NCBI GenBank assembly: GCA_027483535.1
Contig: JAIXUN010000002.1
Location: 1,612,001-1,676,000, forward strand
DNA length: 64,000 bases
Direction: 5' to 3'
From: a bacterium
GTDB taxonomy: Bacteria > Armatimonadota > Fimbriimonadia > Fimbriimonadales > Fimbriimonadaceae
Position numbers and translations under genes: made by a program. Below, one piece after another: positions 125 through 46,094 of the stretch. Numbering within the stretch: position 1 is the stretch's first letter; each line of letters begins with the position of its first letter. The notes beneath the pieces are model-generated. The model had not been told where the DNA came from. It made no database searches and worked only from the letters and a program-made list of their open reading frames with translations.

Positions 125-670
125 CTAATCTTTCTTTTGTTCCCAGACGACATCGCTCACGCCGGATTTTGCGTTCTGATATCGGCAAGCGGTGAAGAAC
201 CAATCCGATAGGCGATTGACGTACACGAGCAACTCTTTCCGGAGCAGTTCCCTCTCGTTAAGAGCCAGGAGGGTTCTCTCTACCCGACGCGAAACCGATC
301 GGCACACATGTAATCGAGCGGCTGCCTCTGACCCGCCTGGAAGAATGAATTTCTCAAGCGGAGGGAGCTCGGACGTCATCTGGTCGATCGACGCTTCTAG
401 GGCGCGAATCTCGGCGTCGGTCACGCTCGTTAACATGAAATCCCCACCGGGCTCACAGGCAAGTTCGGCTCCAAGATCGAAGAGTCGGTGCTGAATGGTG
501 GAGAGTTCAGCGGCGATGAAAGAATCTGCAACCACCGCTGCAACTCCAATAAAGGAGTTCAGTTCGTCAACTTCGCCAATGGCATGGATTCGAATGCTGT
601 GCTTTGAAACTCGCGATCCGCCCAGTAGCCCGGTTTTCCCCTCATCGCCCGTTTTTGTATAAATCTTCAT
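125..670 (-). CDS. Cob(I)yrinic acid a,c-diamide adenosyltransferase (PduO type)
   Basis: Transfers the adenosyl group of ATP to cob(I)alamin, making adenosylcobalamin in the cytosol. The 181 residues match the PduO/MMAB family in length and motifs: the N-terminal KTGDEGKTGLLGG (residues 6-18) that binds ATP, GEVDELNS (32-39), FILPGGS (108-114), the arginine-rich SRRVER (127-132) and YVNRLSDWFF near the end. It is the second gene of a two-gene unit; its ATG overlaps the TGA of the WecG-type gene as ATGA. No cobalamin synthesis genes are nearby, so it probably serves salvaged B12. Its product is the likely ligand of the B12-domain regulator at 45084-46094. Confidence 0.93.
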   Translation of the reverse strand: MKIYTKTGDEGKTGLLGGSRVSKHSIRIHAIGEVDELNSFIGVAAVVADSFIAAELSTIQHRLFDLGAELACEPGGDFMLTSVTDAEIRALEASIDQMTSELPPLEKFILPGGSEAAARLHVCRSVSRRVERTLLALNERELLRKELLVYVNRLSDWFFTACRYQNAKSGVSDVVWEQKKD

Positions 671-39139: not shown

Positions 39140-40785
39140 ACCCACACCGTGGGTCCGACATACTCCATGTCCTCCACGAGGATCGTCGGCTTCGGGTTGA
39201 ACACCTTGTCGAGTTCATATTCCTTAGAAAGTTGCTCGGCGAAGGCGGTGTAACGGTCGGCGAGAAGGGATTCGACGTCGGTGAACTTCCTCCCAGCCTT
39301 CTTGAGCGAAGCAATGCGGTCGACGGCCTGCGTTTCAAAGCTGGAGAACACCACCCGATCTGGCTTCAAGTCACTGAGCAGCCGGGTGTCCCAGTCATAG
39401 CGGTCGTTGATGCCTGAATCGGGGATGAACTGAAGCACTCGGAGAGGTGATGCTTCTCGGAACGCCTGAATTCGCTCCGGACCTGCGAATCTTGGGGCCG
39501 CGGTTTCGGGGTAGAGCGTAGGGGTCCAAAACCATGGATCAGAAACGACTCCCACACTCTTGGATGAGTCCTGCTTCAAGTAATCCGCCACAACCGTGCG
39601 AGTGTCTGGAAGACTCATTTGCAGGCCAAACTGTACCGATCCCATCAGGCCGCCTCGGTCAACACCTGCAACTGCGAGGACGGCTCCAACCAGTGCAATC
39701 TTCTTGGTTCGATCTGTAATCTCGCCGGGCAGATTTTGAATGAAGCGTCCGATCCCGATGGCAAGCGGAAGGAAGAGGGGCAAGACGTACCGCATGAACT
39801 TGATCTCTGCCCGAGAAATGGCCACGAGGTAAATCAAGAAGAAGATCAAAGAGAGAATGGCGATGCGGTCTTTCTGCCTGGCGCCTTGAAGAAGACCCGC
39901 CATTCCAAGGATCGAAGCGAGAATTCCAAACCCTAAAACAAAGTTTCCAAGATGATAGATCAGCGCGCTGGGTGTACCGCTGAAAACGATTCCATGGCCC
40001 GTTTTAGTGTGGTCCAGTTCAAATTGAAAGTCTCGCCAAAACGCTTCTTGGTCCAGGAGGGCTCCGGGGGTTGCGACCACAAAGGCGATCGCCGCAACCA
40101 GGCCGGATCCGACGACGCCGGGGATGGCTCCGCCTTTCAATCTCATCCCCAGCGCCACGAACACGGGAAGCAGGCCGACAATTCCAACGTACTTCGTACC
40201 CGCGCTGAGTCCGCAAAAAGCTCCCGCAATCAGAGCCCACTTAAGGGCGGGTTGGTCCTCGTCAAGGATATTGAACGCCGCTACCAAACCCCCGAGCGAA
40301 AGGAGCAACGCCAGCATGTCGACGGTTTGAAATCGAGAATGAACGGAAAGCGCCGGGGCAACGGCCAACATCCCGGCGGCTATTCCCGCCCCTTGCCAAC
40401 TGCCCCTTCTAGAGAGCGCAAGCCAGGCAATGACCGGAAGCAGAGAGCCGAAAACGAGGTTGAGGAAGCGCCCCGCCTTGTGGACGAGCGCAATCCGCTC
40501 CGAAGGCTTTTCAGGATTGCCGCCGTATGTGATGGCAACATCGCCTGCAACCTTCAGGACCGTGAAGTAGAGCGTCCCGTAGTTGTAGACGCCTGGGGTC
40601 AACTTCCCTTTCGCAAGGTCGATCTGCTGGGAGAAAGCGGCGTTGGGATATTCGTCCGGATGCAGACTGAAATCTTGACCCTGGCTCGGAAGCCCCCACG
40701 TCCAGCCCACGAGTCGGAGCAGCATGGAGGCGACGAAAAACCCAATCGCAATCAGGGTGACAGGCTTCAGCTCAACACGATTCAT
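39118..40785 (-). CDS. GT39/ArnT-like membrane glycosyltransferase
   Basis: A 555-residue polytopic protein of the GT-C class. The first extracytoplasmic loop holds the acidic HPDEYPN (about residue 42), where the Asp-Glu pair is the expected catalytic site. About ten to eleven hydrophobic segments follow, and the last 150 residues form a soluble extracytoplasmic domain (DTRTVVADYLKQDSSKS onward). It would move a sugar from a polyprenyl phosphate donor to a lipid or protein outside the membrane; donor and acceptor are unknown. It overlaps the degenerate HD-GYP gene upstream (ATGA). Confidence 0.82.
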   Translation of the reverse strand: MNRVELKPVTLIAIGFFVASMLLRLVGWTWGLPSQGQDFSLHPDEYPNAAFSQQIDLAKGKLTPGVYNYGTLYFTVLKVAGDVAITYGGNPEKPSERIALVHKAGRFLNLVFGSLLPVIAWLALSRRGSWQGAGIAAGMLAVAPALSVHSRFQTVDMLALLLSLGGLVAAFNILDEDQPALKWALIAGAFCGLSAGTKYVGIVGLLPVFVALGMRLKGGAIPGVVGSGLVAAIAFVVATPGALLDQEAFWRDFQFELDHTKTGHGIVFSGTPSALIYHLGNFVLGFGILASILGMAGLLQGARQKDRIAILSLIFFLIYLVAISRAEIKFMRYVLPLFLPLAIGIGRFIQNLPGEITDRTKKIALVGAVLAVAGVDRGGLMGSVQFGLQMSLPDTRTVVADYLKQDSSKSVGVVSDPWFWTPTLYPETAAPRFAGPERIQAFREASPLRVLQFIPDSGINDRYDWDTRLLSDLKPDRVVFSSFETQAVDRIASLKKAGRKFTDVESLLADRYTAFAEQLSKEYELDKVFNPKPTILVEDMEYVGPTVWVWKRKGS

Positions 40786-41405
40786 ATCAAAGATGCCGAG
40801 GCTTCTTCGGGCTCTTCTGCAAAGAGCCTTGTAAGCGCCTGGACGACTTTTGGATCGTACCGCGTGCCTGCACCGAGTGAGATCTTTGCAATGGCGACCC
40901 TTCTGCCAACGAACCGGTCAAACCAAACGAAGTCGGTGGCAACGGCCAGAATCCTGGCCGCCAACGGGGCATCTGGAGCAACCTCGTACGAAAGGTGATG
41001 GGCTCTTACGATGGGCGAGAGAGCTCGATAGGCCGGGATCATTTGGAGGATCGAGGCACCGACCTCGGGGTGTCGCGCGTACATTGACTCATCGGCAACG
41101 GTTCGATCTTCCCTATTCAAGACTTCGTAAGAAACTCCGCTGAGTCCGATATCTCGCAAGTAGGTCGCTAGGCGAAGGTCTTCAAGCGTTCGACCCGTTA
41201 CACCAAGAGCCTTCGCAACGTCCAGAGAAACGACTTCGACCTCCTTTGAAAGCCCAAAGTGACTGTTGCATCGGAGTTCGGTGGCGCGAGAAAACGCCTG
41301 CGCGATTCGAAGGTAGGTGTCCTTCTTCGCGTACGCTCGCCAGAATTCAAAGATCCCGACGGTTAGGATGCATACCAACAGCGTTTGGACGACGAGAGGA
41401 TTCAT
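40782..41405 (-). CDS. Membrane-anchored degenerate HD-GYP protein
   Basis: A 207-residue protein with one N-terminal membrane segment (VVQTLLVCILTVGIFEFW). The rest aligns with the HD-GYP domain of the neighbour but the active site is gone: LLHDIGK is YLRDIGL (metal His lost, Asp kept), and HHERVDGRGYP is HHLSYEVAPDAP. The flanking ARHPEVGASIL and ILAVATDF are retained. It likely binds or regulates rather than cuts cyclic di-GMP. Coupled by ATGA overlaps to the active HD-GYP gene before it and the GT39 gene after it. Confidence 0.75.
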   Translation of the reverse strand: MNPLVVQTLLVCILTVGIFEFWRAYAKKDTYLRIAQAFSRATELRCNSHFGLSKEVEVVSLDVAKALGVTGRTLEDLRLATYLRDIGLSGVSYEVLNREDRTVADESMYARHPEVGASILQMIPAYRALSPIVRAHHLSYEVAPDAPLAARILAVATDFVWFDRFVGRRVAIAKISLGAGTRYDPKVVQALTRLFAEEPEEASASLI

Positions 41406-42646
41406 CTTGCGGCTTTGATCCCCCTCTGTGCCAGGGCCCCTTCCATGGCATGAATGACCGCTTCATCAAACTGTGTTCCGCTGCATCGCTTCAGTTCGGC
41501 GAGCGCTTCTTCCGGAGAGATCGGCTTGCGATACCGCCGAATCGAGTCCTCATCGCTCCCGGTCATCGCGTCAAAAGCGTCGATCGCACAGATGATCTTG
41601 CTTTCGAGGGGGATTTGATCACCGCTGAGTCCTTTCGGATACCCTCTTCCATCTACCCGCTCATGGTGGAACCGAACCCAGTGGGCGACGTTCCCAAATC
41701 CCCCAACGAGGCGGAGAATCCGGGCGCCGTATTCGGGGTGAAGCTTGACCTGCTCGTACTCTTCGTCGGTGAGCTTGCCTGGCTTTTCAAGAATGCGCTC
41801 ATCGACCGCGAGTTTGCCGATGTCGTGCAGGAGGGCGGCGTGTCCTAGCAACTCAAGTCGGCGATCACCGATGCCTAACCTCTTTCCGACCTCTTTGGCC
41901 AGTTCTGCAACCCGACCAGAGTGCGAACCCGTGTAGGGATGGGCGTGATTCAACATGGCGCTCATCGACCGTAGGCAGGTCTCTGCACGCTCGGAAAGCG
42001 TTCGCCTGCGAAAGAGAACGTAGGCTGCTGCAAAACAAGGGACGATGGCGATTCCGACAGATCGGTCTCCGAGAGGTCCCAAAAACACGAGTGCTCGGGT
42101 CGATAGCAAAAGTCCGGAGAAGAGAACGCCCATCTCAAAAATGCTTGGAAAACCAAGTTGCTCCGGCATCGGCGTTACTCGGCGAAGCCCGAGCAGAGCC
42201 GCCGTGGGCAGGAACAGTGCAAGGCAAGCGCCTACCCACGGGTTCATGCCGTTGGCAACACCCATTGAGACGGCAAGCCCAAGGGCGATGTTGGGAACAA
42301 GTGTCAGGCGAGCCGAGCGATAGTCTGCAAAGAGGAAACCGAGGGCGACTCCCTCCACCAGGACCGCAAAAGCAACATGGTCCGGGGCGATGTCGAAGGT
42401 GCCTGCCCAAACCGGCGATAGGATCGCCACGATCGATACCGGAGGGACAGCCTTTAGGCCCGATCTAAGCAGGAAGGGCACCAATAAAGCCCAGGCAAGC
42501 GGCTCTTTAGCAAAACTCGGGAGACCGATCGCGGCGAGTGTGAAAAGGGCAACAACCCCAAGAGCGCGAAAGCGATCTTGGAGCCACCTTTCCTCCACCC
42601 TTGAGCCCCCCACGACTCTGGGCGTTTTCGTTTTTACTAACGCCAT
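41402..42646 (-). CDS. Membrane HD-GYP domain protein, probable cyclic di-GMP phosphodiesterase
   Basis: A 414-residue protein. Residues about 30-205 form seven or eight membrane helices, a sensor-like module, followed by a complete HD-GYP domain: HSGRVAELAKEVG, LLHDIGKLAVDERIL, HPEYGARIL, FHHERVDGRGYPKGL, IDAFDAMTG. It should break down cyclic di-GMP, switching between motility and attachment, which fits the pilin-like and flagellin genes nearby. It heads an operon with the degenerate copy. TAGGGT lies 12 nt before the ATG and GGCAGGGG precedes it. Confidence 0.88.
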   Translation of the reverse strand: MALVKTKTPRVVGGSRVEERWLQDRFRALGVVALFTLAAIGLPSFAKEPLAWALLVPFLLRSGLKAVPPVSIVAILSPVWAGTFDIAPDHVAFAVLVEGVALGFLFADYRSARLTLVPNIALGLAVSMGVANGMNPWVGACLALFLPTAALLGLRRVTPMPEQLGFPSIFEMGVLFSGLLLSTRALVFLGPLGDRSVGIAIVPCFAAAYVLFRRRTLSERAETCLRSMSAMLNHAHPYTGSHSGRVAELAKEVGKRLGIGDRRLELLGHAALLHDIGKLAVDERILEKPGKLTDEEYEQVKLHPEYGARILRLVGGFGNVAHWVRFHHERVDGRGYPKGLSGDQIPLESKIICAIDAFDAMTGSDEDSIRRYRKPISPEEALAELKRCSGTQFDEAVIHAMEGALAQRGIKAAR

Positions 42647-42727: not shown

Positions 42728-43732
42728 TTATTTAGTTTTGACGGAATTAATCTTGTTCAATTTTAGAGTCGTGCGTCCGCGCAGGTTCGTTTGTAGAATT
42801 GCGTTGGACGCACTGCCTACGTAAATCTCGAATTTGCCTTGAGATTTAGCTGTCGCACGCAGGGTGTGATGAGAAATCGGGTCCAAATCGAAGTCGATTG
42901 CCGCGCTCAGTTCCAAGGGCAGTTTTTTTATCTCGCCCGATGCGTTTTTCTCGCCGAGGAGTTGCGCCGCGTATGCGGCTAGATCGGCTTTCGTTGAGAA
43001 ATCGGCACTGATGCGGAGAATATCCTTCCCAGCCGAGTTCTTCATCTTCCCCTTGTAGGTGAAGGTGTAGTCGAGCCGTTGGACAGCCTGATTGGCATCC
43101 GCTTTGTTCTTTTGCGGCGTAAATCCAACCGTCCGCTTCCAGGTGTCACCGACTTTCACTTTCTCGAGCGGAAGCTTTGGTGCGAAGTCCATGGACGAAT
43201 CGAGGTTGCCGGTGAATAGGGCAAGTCGATACATCTCGCCGACGAACTGACCCAAAAGCCCGGCCGCAACGTTATCGGTCAGATTGTCTTGAAGCACCCG
43301 GAGAGTACGTTGTTGACTTCCCTTTTTCTTGGGATCCTTCGGAGTGAGGTCTACGATGTCAAGAACATCGTTCACCGGCGAGACATCCATCTGAAGTTTG
43401 TATTTCAGGGGGATCTTAATGGTTTGCGGCGCTTCTCCGGCCGACTCTGTGACCTGGGTGATATTCGGCCGCTCGTAGAGAGCCTGGACAATCCCATCAA
43501 CTTTCGGCTTCTGAATGGTGAGCGTGAAGCCGTAGCGCTGGGTGATGTCTTCCGGAATGAAGGTTTGGAGTTCGCCTGACCTCTGCTCAACAGTTAGGCT
43601 TCCCTCCACCGAGTAGTCCAGAACTTGATTCGCCAGAAACTTTCGGGACAGGGAGATCGCCTCACCCTCGGTTTGAACTCGGTTCAATCCGGAAGTTGCA
43701 AGTACCAAGGGAATCATAGAGAGCAAATTCAT
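42728..43732 (-). CDS. Secreted protein of unknown function with start inside an inverted repeat
   Basis: A 334-residue protein with a short signal peptide (MNLLSMIPLVLATSG). Beta-rich, with segments PLEKVKVGDTWKRTVGF, YTFTYKGKMKNSAGKDILRI and a basic C-terminus. The arrangement is like that of the protein at 24138-24839 and of DUF6263-type exported proteins, but similarity is weak. The ATG lies in the loop of a perfect 12-bp inverted repeat (43713-43745), and TATCAT sits 8 nt upstream. Confidence 0.65.
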   Translation of the reverse strand: MNLLSMIPLVLATSGLNRVQTEGEAISLSRKFLANQVLDYSVEGSLTVEQRSGELQTFIPEDITQRYGFTLTIQKPKVDGIVQALYERPNITQVTESAGEAPQTIKIPLKYKLQMDVSPVNDVLDIVDLTPKDPKKKGSQQRTLRVLQDNLTDNVAAGLLGQFVGEMYRLALFTGNLDSSMDFAPKLPLEKVKVGDTWKRTVGFTPQKNKADANQAVQRLDYTFTYKGKMKNSAGKDILRISADFSTKADLAAYAAQLLGEKNASGEIKKLPLELSAAIDFDLDPISHHTLRATAKSQGKFEIYVGSASNAILQTNLRGRTTLKLNKINSVKTK

Positions 43733-43760: not shown

Positions 43761-44879
43761 CTATCGCAGACACTGTTTTGCGATAACCATGCGTTGAATT
43801 TCGCTACAGCCTTCGCCGATCTCGGTAAGTTTGGCATCCCGCCACAATTTCTCAACCAGGAACTCGTAGGTCATGCCTCGACCGCCGTGCACCTGAATAG
43901 CGCGATTGGTCACACGATTCGCGGTTTCGCTCGCGTAGAGCTTTGCCATCGACGATTCTTTCACAACCGGAAGGCCCATGTCGAACATCTTCGCCCCCTT
44001 GTGCAGAAGAAGCTTAGCAGCCTCGATCTCCATCGCGCTGTCGGCGATGAAGTTTTGAACCGACTGCATGTCGCAGAGACGGCGATTGAACTGCTCTCGC
44101 TGCTTGGAGTACTCGACCATCAGCTCAAATGCCTTCTCGGCGATACCAAGAGCCATCGCTGCGATGCCAAGTCGGCCTCGATAGAGCAGACCAATTGCTT
44201 GCTCGAAGGTGCACGGCGTGTGCCAGCCAATCGCGTCCTTCAGCTTGAAGGCAACTGTGTTGGAGGCAGAAACACCGACGGTGTGAATGCGTTGGTCGAA
44301 GACGTACCCATCTTGCTTGGTCTCCACAAGGAAAGCACTCAGCTCGGTCTCGGAGGTACGGGCGATGAGGATGATCAAGTCAGCCTTGCCACCGTTTGTA
44401 ATGAACATCTTGTGGCCGTTGATCTTGAAGTAGCCCGGGCGATCTTCAATGGGTTCCGCCTTCGTGCGAACGCGTCGGGCGTCAGATCCTGCGTCTGGCT
44501 CCGTGAGACCCCAGGCGAGCTTGATTTCACCGGTCTTGATCCCAGGCAGATACTTCTGCTTCTGCTCTTCGGTTCCGAAGACCTCGATGTGCGCGACGCA
44601 AAGGGCGTTTATCGCAGCGACGTTCATCGAAAGGGCTGGGTCTCCCTTCGCAAGCTCGCGACAGGTTTCCACGTAGCCCATGCACGAGAGACCAAGACCA
44701 CCGTTCTCCTTTGAAAGGGTCATGGAAAGCATGCCGGCCGAGCCGAGCTTCAGCCAAATGTCGTCGTCAAAAGCCTTTTGCTCCTCCCACTTGCGTGTCT
44801 TTGGAAGGACTTCGGCCTCGACAAACGATCGGACCGTCGAAAGAAAATCGTTCTCAGTGGGCGTAATCTCAAGAAACAT
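43761..44879 (-). CDS. Acyl-CoA dehydrogenase
   Basis: FAD enzyme that introduces the trans-2 double bond in acyl-CoA, passing electrons to ETF (genes at 49877-51495). The 372 residues show the N-terminal helices, the FAD segment CHAIQLPELIS-equivalent WGLTEPDAGSDARRV, GHKMFITNGGKADL, and the C-terminal VHGGRGMTYEFLVEKLWRD with catalytic Glu in IGEGCSEIQ. Chain-length preference cannot be told. Start ATG 44879 chosen; a start 14 codons upstream would add an unusual proline-rich stretch. Divergent from the B12-domain regulator. Confidence 0.92.
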   Translation of the reverse strand: MFLEITPTENDFLSTVRSFVEAEVLPKTRKWEEQKAFDDDIWLKLGSAGMLSMTLSKENGGLGLSCMGYVETCRELAKGDPALSMNVAAINALCVAHIEVFGTEEQKQKYLPGIKTGEIKLAWGLTEPDAGSDARRVRTKAEPIEDRPGYFKINGHKMFITNGGKADLIILIARTSETELSAFLVETKQDGYVFDQRIHTVGVSASNTVAFKLKDAIGWHTPCTFEQAIGLLYRGRLGIAAMALGIAEKAFELMVEYSKQREQFNRRLCDMQSVQNFIADSAMEIEAAKLLLHKGAKMFDMGLPVVKESSMAKLYASETANRVTNRAIQVHGGRGMTYEFLVEKLWRDAKLTEIGEGCSEIQRMVIAKQCLR

Positions 44880-44955: not shown

Positions 44956-45063
44956 CTGGTTGTACCAGAACGGGGGATGTATAAAGAGGCCCCTTTAGAG
45001 TTCACTCAACGGTGCCGAATGATATATCAGCCTACGAACGAATCAATTCAGCGTAGAATGATA
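44956..45063. promoter_or_regulatory. Intergenic region with dyads and a repeat upstream of the B12-type regulator
   Basis: In the 204-bp gap between divergent genes: CTGGT-TGT-ACCAG (44956-44968), TAAAGAGG-CCCCTTTA (44982-44997, one mismatch), and the direct repeat GAATGATA at 45017-45024 and 45056-45063. The second copy overlaps a TAGAAT box (45054-45059). These are candidate sites for the regulator; none is proven. Confidence 0.35.
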
Positions 45064-45083: not shown

Positions 45084-46094
45084 GTGAATGTTTACGAAGA
45101 ATTAAGTGAAGCCTCCCGTAGGACGATTTTAAAGGAACTCCTGAAGGGTCCGCGCAATGTCTCGGAACTCGTGGAGCAAACCGGTTTGAAGCAACCGAAC
45201 GTGTCAAACCACCTTGCTCGCATGCGAGCAAAGGGCATCGTTCGCGCTTCAAAAGACGGAAGGCAGGTTTTTTACAGTATTGCTTCAGCGGACATTGAAG
45301 ACGCGGTTCGATCTTTTCTCCGAGAGGGCGAAGACGAAGTTTTTGAAATCAATATCGCGGAGTCGGCAAAGGAATACGCAAAAGCAGCCATTCGGGGCGA
45401 TGAGGGCAAGTGTGCAGAGATCCTCGATCGCTGTCTCAAGGCACGGCTTACGATTCTTGAGATATTTCAAGACTTCTTGGGCGGAGCAATGGCAACCGTG
45501 GGCACCTGGTACAAGGTGGAAGCCATTGACGAGGCGCAAGAGCACATGGCTTCGGCGATCACGGAACGAATGCTTTCAAGGACGGCACAGTTCTTTGGAC
45601 CACGTTCTCGTAGCGAACGATCCGCTATTCTTGGTTGCGCGCCTCACTCGTGGCACGTCATTGGTCTGCGAATGATCAACGACTATCTTCGGTTTTGCGG
45701 ATGGAAGACCCAGTATCTGGGAGCCAACGTGCCCGTAGACAGTTTCGTTGCCTCGGTGCGAGAGAACAAGCCGGACCTTGTCCTAATCAGTTGCTCGGCG
45801 GCGGACAGCATCGAGTCCACCCTTGAGCTCATTCGGTCGCTCACCGAGCTTCGGTCGACGAAGCAGGATTTCTTGGTCGGAGTAGGCGGAGGAGCCGTTC
45901 TGAACTATCCTCATGCGTTTCGAGACGCTGGTGCGGACTTCTCCTCAAGGGACTTGAAGACGTTTGCGCTGGAAGCGCTCCCGGAAATCGAGCGCGTGGG
46001 AAGAGCAAGTGGCGACTGGAACGATGCCCAGTTGAACGGCCTTAAGCAGAAGGCCACCCTTGACGTTTCTGAGCTTGAAACAGCAAACGACTGA
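45084..46094 (+). CDS. ArsR-type regulator fused to a CarH-like B12-binding domain
   Basis: A 336-residue cytosolic regulator. Residues 5-75 form an ArsR-type winged helix (ASRRTILKELLKGPRNVSEL, QTGLKQPNVSNHLARM). Residues about 95-170 are a B12-binding cap: Trp142 and the pair Glu153-His154 recall the W-x9-EH motif that covers adenosylcobalamin in the photoreceptor CarH, with one extra residue here. Residues about 180-300 are a B12-binding Rossmann domain: His191 in SWHVIGL stands for the lower ligand (the usual D/E-x-H has Ser), and GVGGGAV follows. CarH/LitR proteins use a MerR-type DNA-binding domain, so the ArsR head is unusual. Start is GTG with AGGAAAGG upstream. Could sense light or B12 level. 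Confidence 0.85.
   Translation: MNVYEELSEASRRTILKELLKGPRNVSELVEQTGLKQPNVSNHLARMRAKGIVRASKDGRQVFYSIASADIEDAVRSFLREGEDEVFEINIAESAKEYAKAAIRGDEGKCAEILDRCLKARLTILEIFQDFLGGAMATVGTWYKVEAIDEAQEHMASAITERMLSRTAQFFGPRSRSERSAILGCAPHSWHVIGLRMINDYLRFCGWKTQYLGANVPVDSFVASVRENKPDLVLISCSAADSIESTLELIRSLTELRSTKQDFLVGVGGGAVLNYPHAFRDAGADFSSRDLKTFALEALPEIERVGRASGDWNDAQLNGLKQKATLDVSELETAND

Follow-up and report, generated by a model that had tools for sequence, protein, structure and literature searches.

An ArsR-headed regulator with a predicted cobalamin domain of the CarH/photocobilin kind, paired with an acyl-CoA dehydrogenase gene in Armatimonadota

An open reading frame in the window (the whole 64,000-nucleotide stretch analysed here) encodes an ArsR/SmtB-type DNA-binding head followed by a B12-binding domain of the CarH/photocobilin kind (positions 45084-46094, forward strand; 336 aa, GTG start, one open frame). 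We consider the protein to be, with somewhat better than even probability, an ArsR-type repressor that acts as a dimer, senses cobalamin, probably adenosylcobalamin (AdoCbl), and controls its own promoter and a divergently encoded acyl-CoA dehydrogenase. The protein is distinct from CarH by its head, its clade and two motif positions. The window lies in a 3.77-Mb genome, 99% complete, whose relatives are Fimbriimonadaceae.

Three domains were delimited, all on the forward strand. Residues 1-80 (45084-45323) form an ArsR/SmtB-type winged helix, as revealed by the Pfam family HTH_5 (residues 12-54, 47.3 bits, cut-off 22), the NCBIfam ArsR/SmtB subfamily model NF033788 (70.9 bits, cut-off 55) and the secondary structure of the predicted model. 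Residues 92-169 (45357-45590) form a four-helix B12 cap with the motif [Y/W]143-x9-E153-H154, delimited by PF02607 (B12-binding_2, residues 96-165, 43.2 bits, cut-off 23), by alignment to Thermus thermophilus CarH (TtCarH) and by conservation. Residues 180-301 (45621-45986) form a B12-binding Rossmann domain, delimited by PF02310 (B12-binding, residues 180-286, 69.7 bits, cut-off 32.1) and by conservation. Its motifs are S189-W190-H191-x2-G194-x41-S236, GxxxP at 213-217 and GG at 268-269. With both B12 models over their cut-offs and the lower-ligand His present, the protein falls within the cobalamin-binding superfamily; the winged helix, over its curated cut-offs, places it among the ArsR/SmtB proteins. 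The chain continues for only ~30 residues past the B12 domain, with a low-confidence helix at 314-334 in the model. No MerR family was among the Pfam matches, and the NCBIfam CarH equivalog NF052513 (TransRegCarH) gave 27.2 bits, far under its cut-off of 400.

In the model, the head has a recognition helix at 39-49, a wing at 53-66 and an alpha5-like helix at 69-80. The recognition-helix sequence QPNVSNHL is nearly invariant in the family. Many ArsR/SmtB members, though not all, have an alpha3N or alpha5 metal site. Residues 1-90 of the window protein contain no Cys and a single His (H43, in the recognition helix), so the head has no canonical metal site. The protein thus shares the N-terminal winged helix with the ArsR/SmtB metalloregulators, but lacks their metal-site residues and carries an extra 240-residue B12 domain.

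The register of the pocket was established against TtCarH, using the reference sequence from plasmid pTT27. The cap aligned without gaps (GEAWHRGEIGVAEEH in TtCarH, GTWYKVEAIDEAQEH in the window protein). A130, W131 and H132 of TtCarH correspond to Trp142, Tyr143 and Lys144, and E141-H142 to E153-H154; on the Rossmann side, E175, R176 and H177 correspond to Ser189, Trp190 and His191. The cap register was identical in phmmer alignments to the photocobilins 8j2x and 8j2w. The preliminary description of this DNA had located Trp142, E153-H154, Ser189 and His191 correctly. However, it took Trp142 for the cap Trp and saw an extra residue between it and EH, a one-residue misregister: the counterpart of W131 is Tyr143, with Tyr or Trp in 38 of the 39 family members. 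It had also cast the His of EH as the light-adduct ligand. In TtCarH, the upper ligand after illumination is His132, right after the Trp (PMC10442372; PMC8156234), and the equivalent residue here is Lys144.

Conservation was strongest in the residues that would line the cofactor. Position 143 is Tyr in 28 of the 39 proteins, Trp in 10 and Ala in one; position 142 is looser (Trp in 29, the rest Met, Arg, Gly, Ser, Leu or Lys), and position 144 is variable. E153, H154, H191 and G194 are each kept in 38, a frequency that for the EH pair and H191 rules out chance occurrence, and G213 and P217 are kept in all 39. Since overall identity among family members is 35-55%, the retention of the aromatic residue, EH and H191 argues for strong selection on the pocket. 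The replacement of D/E by Ser before the lower His, rightly pointed out earlier, is family-wide (Asn in 26, Ser in 11; 37 of 39 in total) and should weaken or alter the Co-His ligation. In a single protein (L032:6001-6951, forward strand), Y143, E153-H154 and H191 are all gone, a natural pocket loss. Its genome, inferred to be G011 of the same genus, had no acyl-CoA dehydrogenase match at 1e-120.

CarH is defined by the motifs Wx9EH and ExH (PMC8156234). Both are altered here, and we therefore do not file the protein as CarH. The family cap reads [Y/W]-x9-EH, and that of the window protein Y143-x9-E153-H154. The lower motif reads S-W-H-x2-G-x41-S-C-S-x29-GG, against D/ExHx2G/P-x41-SxT/V-x22-27-GG in CarH; the H, G, 41-residue spacing, S and GG agree, and the D/E, T/V and last spacing do not. 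The light-responsive signature GxxW/EH/GxxH/GxxxP (PMC11796333) is present in part, as GxxY, EH, HxxH and GxxxP, and some orthologues, L013, L015 and L017 among them, carry all four elements. With CarH/LitR, the MerR-type AdoCbl photoreceptors found for example in T. thermophilus, the protein shares the order of head, four-helix cap and Rossmann domain, as well as the EH cap, lower-ligand His, GG and GxxxP. It differs from them by its ArsR instead of MerR head, Tyr or Trp for the cap Trp, N/S-x-H for D/E-x-H, and the lack of both a His132 equivalent and the R176/D201 salt-bridge pair, which in the ungapped register is W190/N215.

The AlphaFold model (28 family members) had a mean pLDDT of 90.5. 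Residues 89-305 matched the photocobilin 8j2w with Z 25.4 (2.0 Å over 208 residues), and 8j2x likewise. The B12 part also matched the B12 domain of CtMerR (8jbt, Z 23.8), MetH (Z 22.9), TtCarH (5c8e, Z 19.6) and the SCHIC domain of AppA (Z 19); folds were also compared with Foldseek. Together with the Pfam and NCBIfam matches, this bears out the earlier proposal of an ArsR head on a CarH-like B12 domain. The AlphaFold models carry no cobalamin, and His154 and His191 are placed about the corrin by homology. The SCHIC match brings in another tetrapyrrole, such as heme, as an occupant of the pocket, which we regard as highly improbable: SCHIC has its heme-binding His two residues out of register and Leu/Arg in the cap (PMC9144470), whereas the window protein has its lower His where cobalamin-binding domains have it and retains S236 and GG of the B12 motif.

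The solved structures closest to the B12 part are those of validated B12 photoreceptors, and light sensing by the regulator is plausible by analogy. The photocobilins SasPcob and AbDPcob have the closest B12 domain both by fold and by sequence search (5e-16), and share the pocket residues AQEH and WH with the window protein; unlike them, the window protein has a DNA-binding head and no biliverdin-binding globin domain beside its B12 domain. CtMerR, a MerR-type B12 photoreceptor of Chloracidobacterium, likewise combines a DNA-binding head with a B12 domain that has no His132 equivalent, but its head is MerR and its GxxW and GxxH are canonical. The His132 position is Arg in CtMerR, Gln in SasPcob and Tyr in AbDPcob, yet all three photoconvert. 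The Glu of EH reorients in CtMerR and reaches the cobalt via water, and in SasPcob the EH helix shifts by ~2.4 Å (PMC11796333, PMC10979010). The missing His132 therefore does not exclude light sensing here, and a light response without bis-His ligation would be possible.

A true green/blue-light photoreceptor of the CarH kind, AdoCbl-loaded and DNA-bound in the dark and freed by photolysis, is thus a real prospect, if short of an even chance. The EH pair, GxxxP, lower His and aromatic cap residue are all kept, and the genome encodes phytoene synthase and photolyase. The substitutions of the cap Trp, of D/E before the lower His and of the R176/D201 pair speak against it, as does the co-occurrence of true MerR-CarH proteins in several relatives. 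Furthermore, no light-linked gene adjoins the regulator. Homologues of CrtB, CrtI and Phr were not found near the MerR-CarH proteins of Armatimonadota either.

The cap Trp is critical in CarH, and its replacement by Tyr in most members also counts against our preferred reading of a cobalamin-responsive repressor. Myxococcus xanthus CarA, which has a MerR head, retains the B12 motif but not the Trp, and functions without B12 (PMC8156234, PMC9304148). The regulator might be a similar B12-independent relic that represses without cofactor, and the L032 protein, with all its cofactor residues gone, would suit such a history. We consider this unlikely in view of the retention of the aromatic residue, EH and H191, each in 38 of 39 proteins that are otherwise so divergent.

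The probable target of the repressor is the divergent acyl-CoA dehydrogenase gene (43761-44879, reverse strand; 372 aa; Pfam Acyl-CoA_dh N, M and 1). It lies divergent from the regulator at a distance of 82-284 bp in 26 of the 38 other loci, or 27 of 39 including the window. In 11 loci the dehydrogenase is kept without the rplT-infC-fadB side found downstream, and the reverse was seen in three, two of them sisters. Six relatives without the regulator have the dehydrogenase directly beside rplT-infC or separated from it by a single unrelated gene, and represent the empty site for the regulator. Conversely, the regulator occurs without an adjacent dehydrogenase in Chthonomonadales and others. 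The dehydrogenase is probably the regulator's partner, but both kinds of unpaired locus show that the coupling is not obligatory.

Among named models, acryloyl-CoA reductase and other short-chain acyl-CoA dehydrogenases come nearest to the dehydrogenase, each scoring far under cut-off. FadB-like and ETF genes are found 2.5-6 kb away within the window. A 334-aa protein with no Pfam or NCBIfam match (42728-43732, reverse strand) is encoded beside the dehydrogenase in many relatives. Two adjacent open frames at 40782-42646 (reverse strand) belong to one homology cluster, in a block conserved in the genus; by eye, the second contains an HD-GYP-like stretch. The preliminary description mentioned neither the conserved divergent dehydrogenase nor the candidate operator described below.

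The linked gene is metabolic, and not one for carotenoids or a photolyase. This would suit a dark sensor of cobalamin supply or form (AdoCbl versus MeCbl or OHCbl) without a physiological role in light sensing. Short SAerR offers a precedent, as it takes several cobalamins regardless of light (PMC9144470). On the other hand, the protein retains the cap residues through which CarH contacts the adenosyl group, and none of the linked enzymes uses B12. We regard the dark-sensor reading as less likely than not.

A de novo palindrome search identified a candidate operator between the two genes, an imperfect 24-bp inverted repeat at 45004-45027 (ACTCAACG-N8-TGATATAT; family consensus ATATATCA-N8-TGATATAT), with an exact TGATATATCA at 45020-45029. 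Palindromic expectation maximization on 24 intergenic regions reached a log-likelihood of 92.2, compared to 38-41 in shuffles. A spacing of 8 was the best of 2-14 (z 7.0, for a model built on three sequences and scored on the remaining 21), although other spacings score too, as promoter boxes share A/T. Most loci have the palindrome in this intergenic region, mostly ~42 bp ahead of the regulator start, a position at which it would cover the regulator's own promoter. A 24-bp inverted repeat fits an ArsR dimer; the CarH operator, by contrast, consists of tandem 11-bp direct repeats (PMC8156234). The copy in the window is weak, with 13 of 16 positions matching. Half-sites of the form TGATATAT were also present ahead of regulator genes that have no dehydrogenase next to them (L011, L018, L019), and the palindrome does not show in most Chthonomonadales loci.

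A second intergenic motif, AGTAGAAT, towards the dehydrogenase, is probably the -10 box of that gene. Between the candidate operator and the start codon lies another imperfect inverted repeat, CTACGAACGAATCAATTCAGCGTAG (45032-45056). Scanning the window's own genome with the consensus returned six sites, none of them the window copy, compared to three for the reversed control; the one exact match lies just downstream of an open reading frame. For these reasons, no regulon is claimed.

The repressor that we favor would be a one-component transcription factor, with a metal-site-less ArsR/SmtB winged-helix dimer under a C-terminal cobalamin domain of the CarH/photocobilin kind. Between the Rossmann domain and the four-helix cap, cobalamin would sit in the base-off/His-on state, most likely as AdoCbl, with H191 as lower ligand and the upper face covered by Y143, E153 and H154. 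With the cap loaded, the arrangement of the two subunits would be fixed, and this would set the affinity of the ArsR dimer for the palindrome between the regulator gene and the divergent dehydrogenase gene. Should light or falling AdoCbl remove the upper ligand, the E153-H154 helix would shift, as it does in photocobilins, and DNA binding would be altered.

If this proposal is true, B12 sensing is a plug-in module that works with an ArsR dimer on a palindrome as well as with a MerR tetramer on direct repeats, and one that can do without the defining Trp and D/E of CarH. B12-based gene regulation would then be wider than counted, because signature searches would miss most ArsR-B12 members. Tools for light- or B12-controlled expression would also gain a new part in an ArsR-type AdoCbl switch. 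A more specific version, rather doubtful at present, is a new class of B12 photoreceptors in Armatimonadota, in which AdoCbl photolysis gates an ArsR dimer at its palindrome through a Tyr-capped N/S-x-H pocket that lacks a second His ligand, and light is linked to fatty-acid oxidation rather than to carotenoid synthesis. Fusions of B12 domains to unspecified HTH domains have already been reported (PMC11796333). In the literature searched, which covered few subscription journals, we found no description of the ArsR form with its altered pocket.

AdoCbl should occur in the cell, as the genome encodes a PduO-type ATP:cob(I)alamin adenosyltransferase (window 179-664, reverse strand; PF01923, 194.9 bits), the AdoCbl-dependent class II ribonucleotide reductase NrdJ, and MetH. 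Together with conservation and fold, these AdoCbl-making and AdoCbl-using genes lend good support to the earlier suggestion of a B12-dependent regulator. PduO would make the ligand proposed for the regulator; as discriminating evidence its presence was discarded, being near-universal in the order (58 of 61) and so uninformative. MetH and the regulator are the only PF02310 proteins of the genome. An RNA-family scan of the 64-kb window returned only a tRNA and no cobalamin riboswitch.

In the genome collection, 31 loci were found to encode a full-length relative, nearly all of them with an Armatimonadota label. About 50 of 291 Armatimonadota genomes, from Fimbriimonadaceae and two further families, encode the full-length protein. 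One locus, L022, has a Methanoregulaceae label, yet is nearly the same as a Fimbriimonadaceae locus on the B12-domain tree; its bin looks mislabelled. No plasmid record reached 80% coverage of the window protein. On the B12-domain tree, which was midpoint-rooted and of limited sampling, the ArsR-B12 family formed one clade (99/99), separate from the MerR/CarH proteins (99/94). The genus that has the ArsR form also has canonical MerR-CarH proteins with W-x9-EH, and four genomes (G004, G005, G012 and G019) encode both. In those lineages, the ArsR form is therefore not simply a CarH with an exchanged head.

Two separate ArsR-B12 proteins differ in their pockets. One, from another Armatimonadota family (L105:4372-5598, forward strand), has a fully canonical W-x9-EH and GELH (E-x-H). 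The other (L104:4933-5931, reverse strand) has its lower-ligand His replaced (GEFN) and for that reason is probably unable to ligate cobalt through this position. Another head/tail combination was seen at L101:5172-6083 (reverse strand), where a B12 domain is followed by a C-terminal helix-turn-helix that by eye looks XRE-type.
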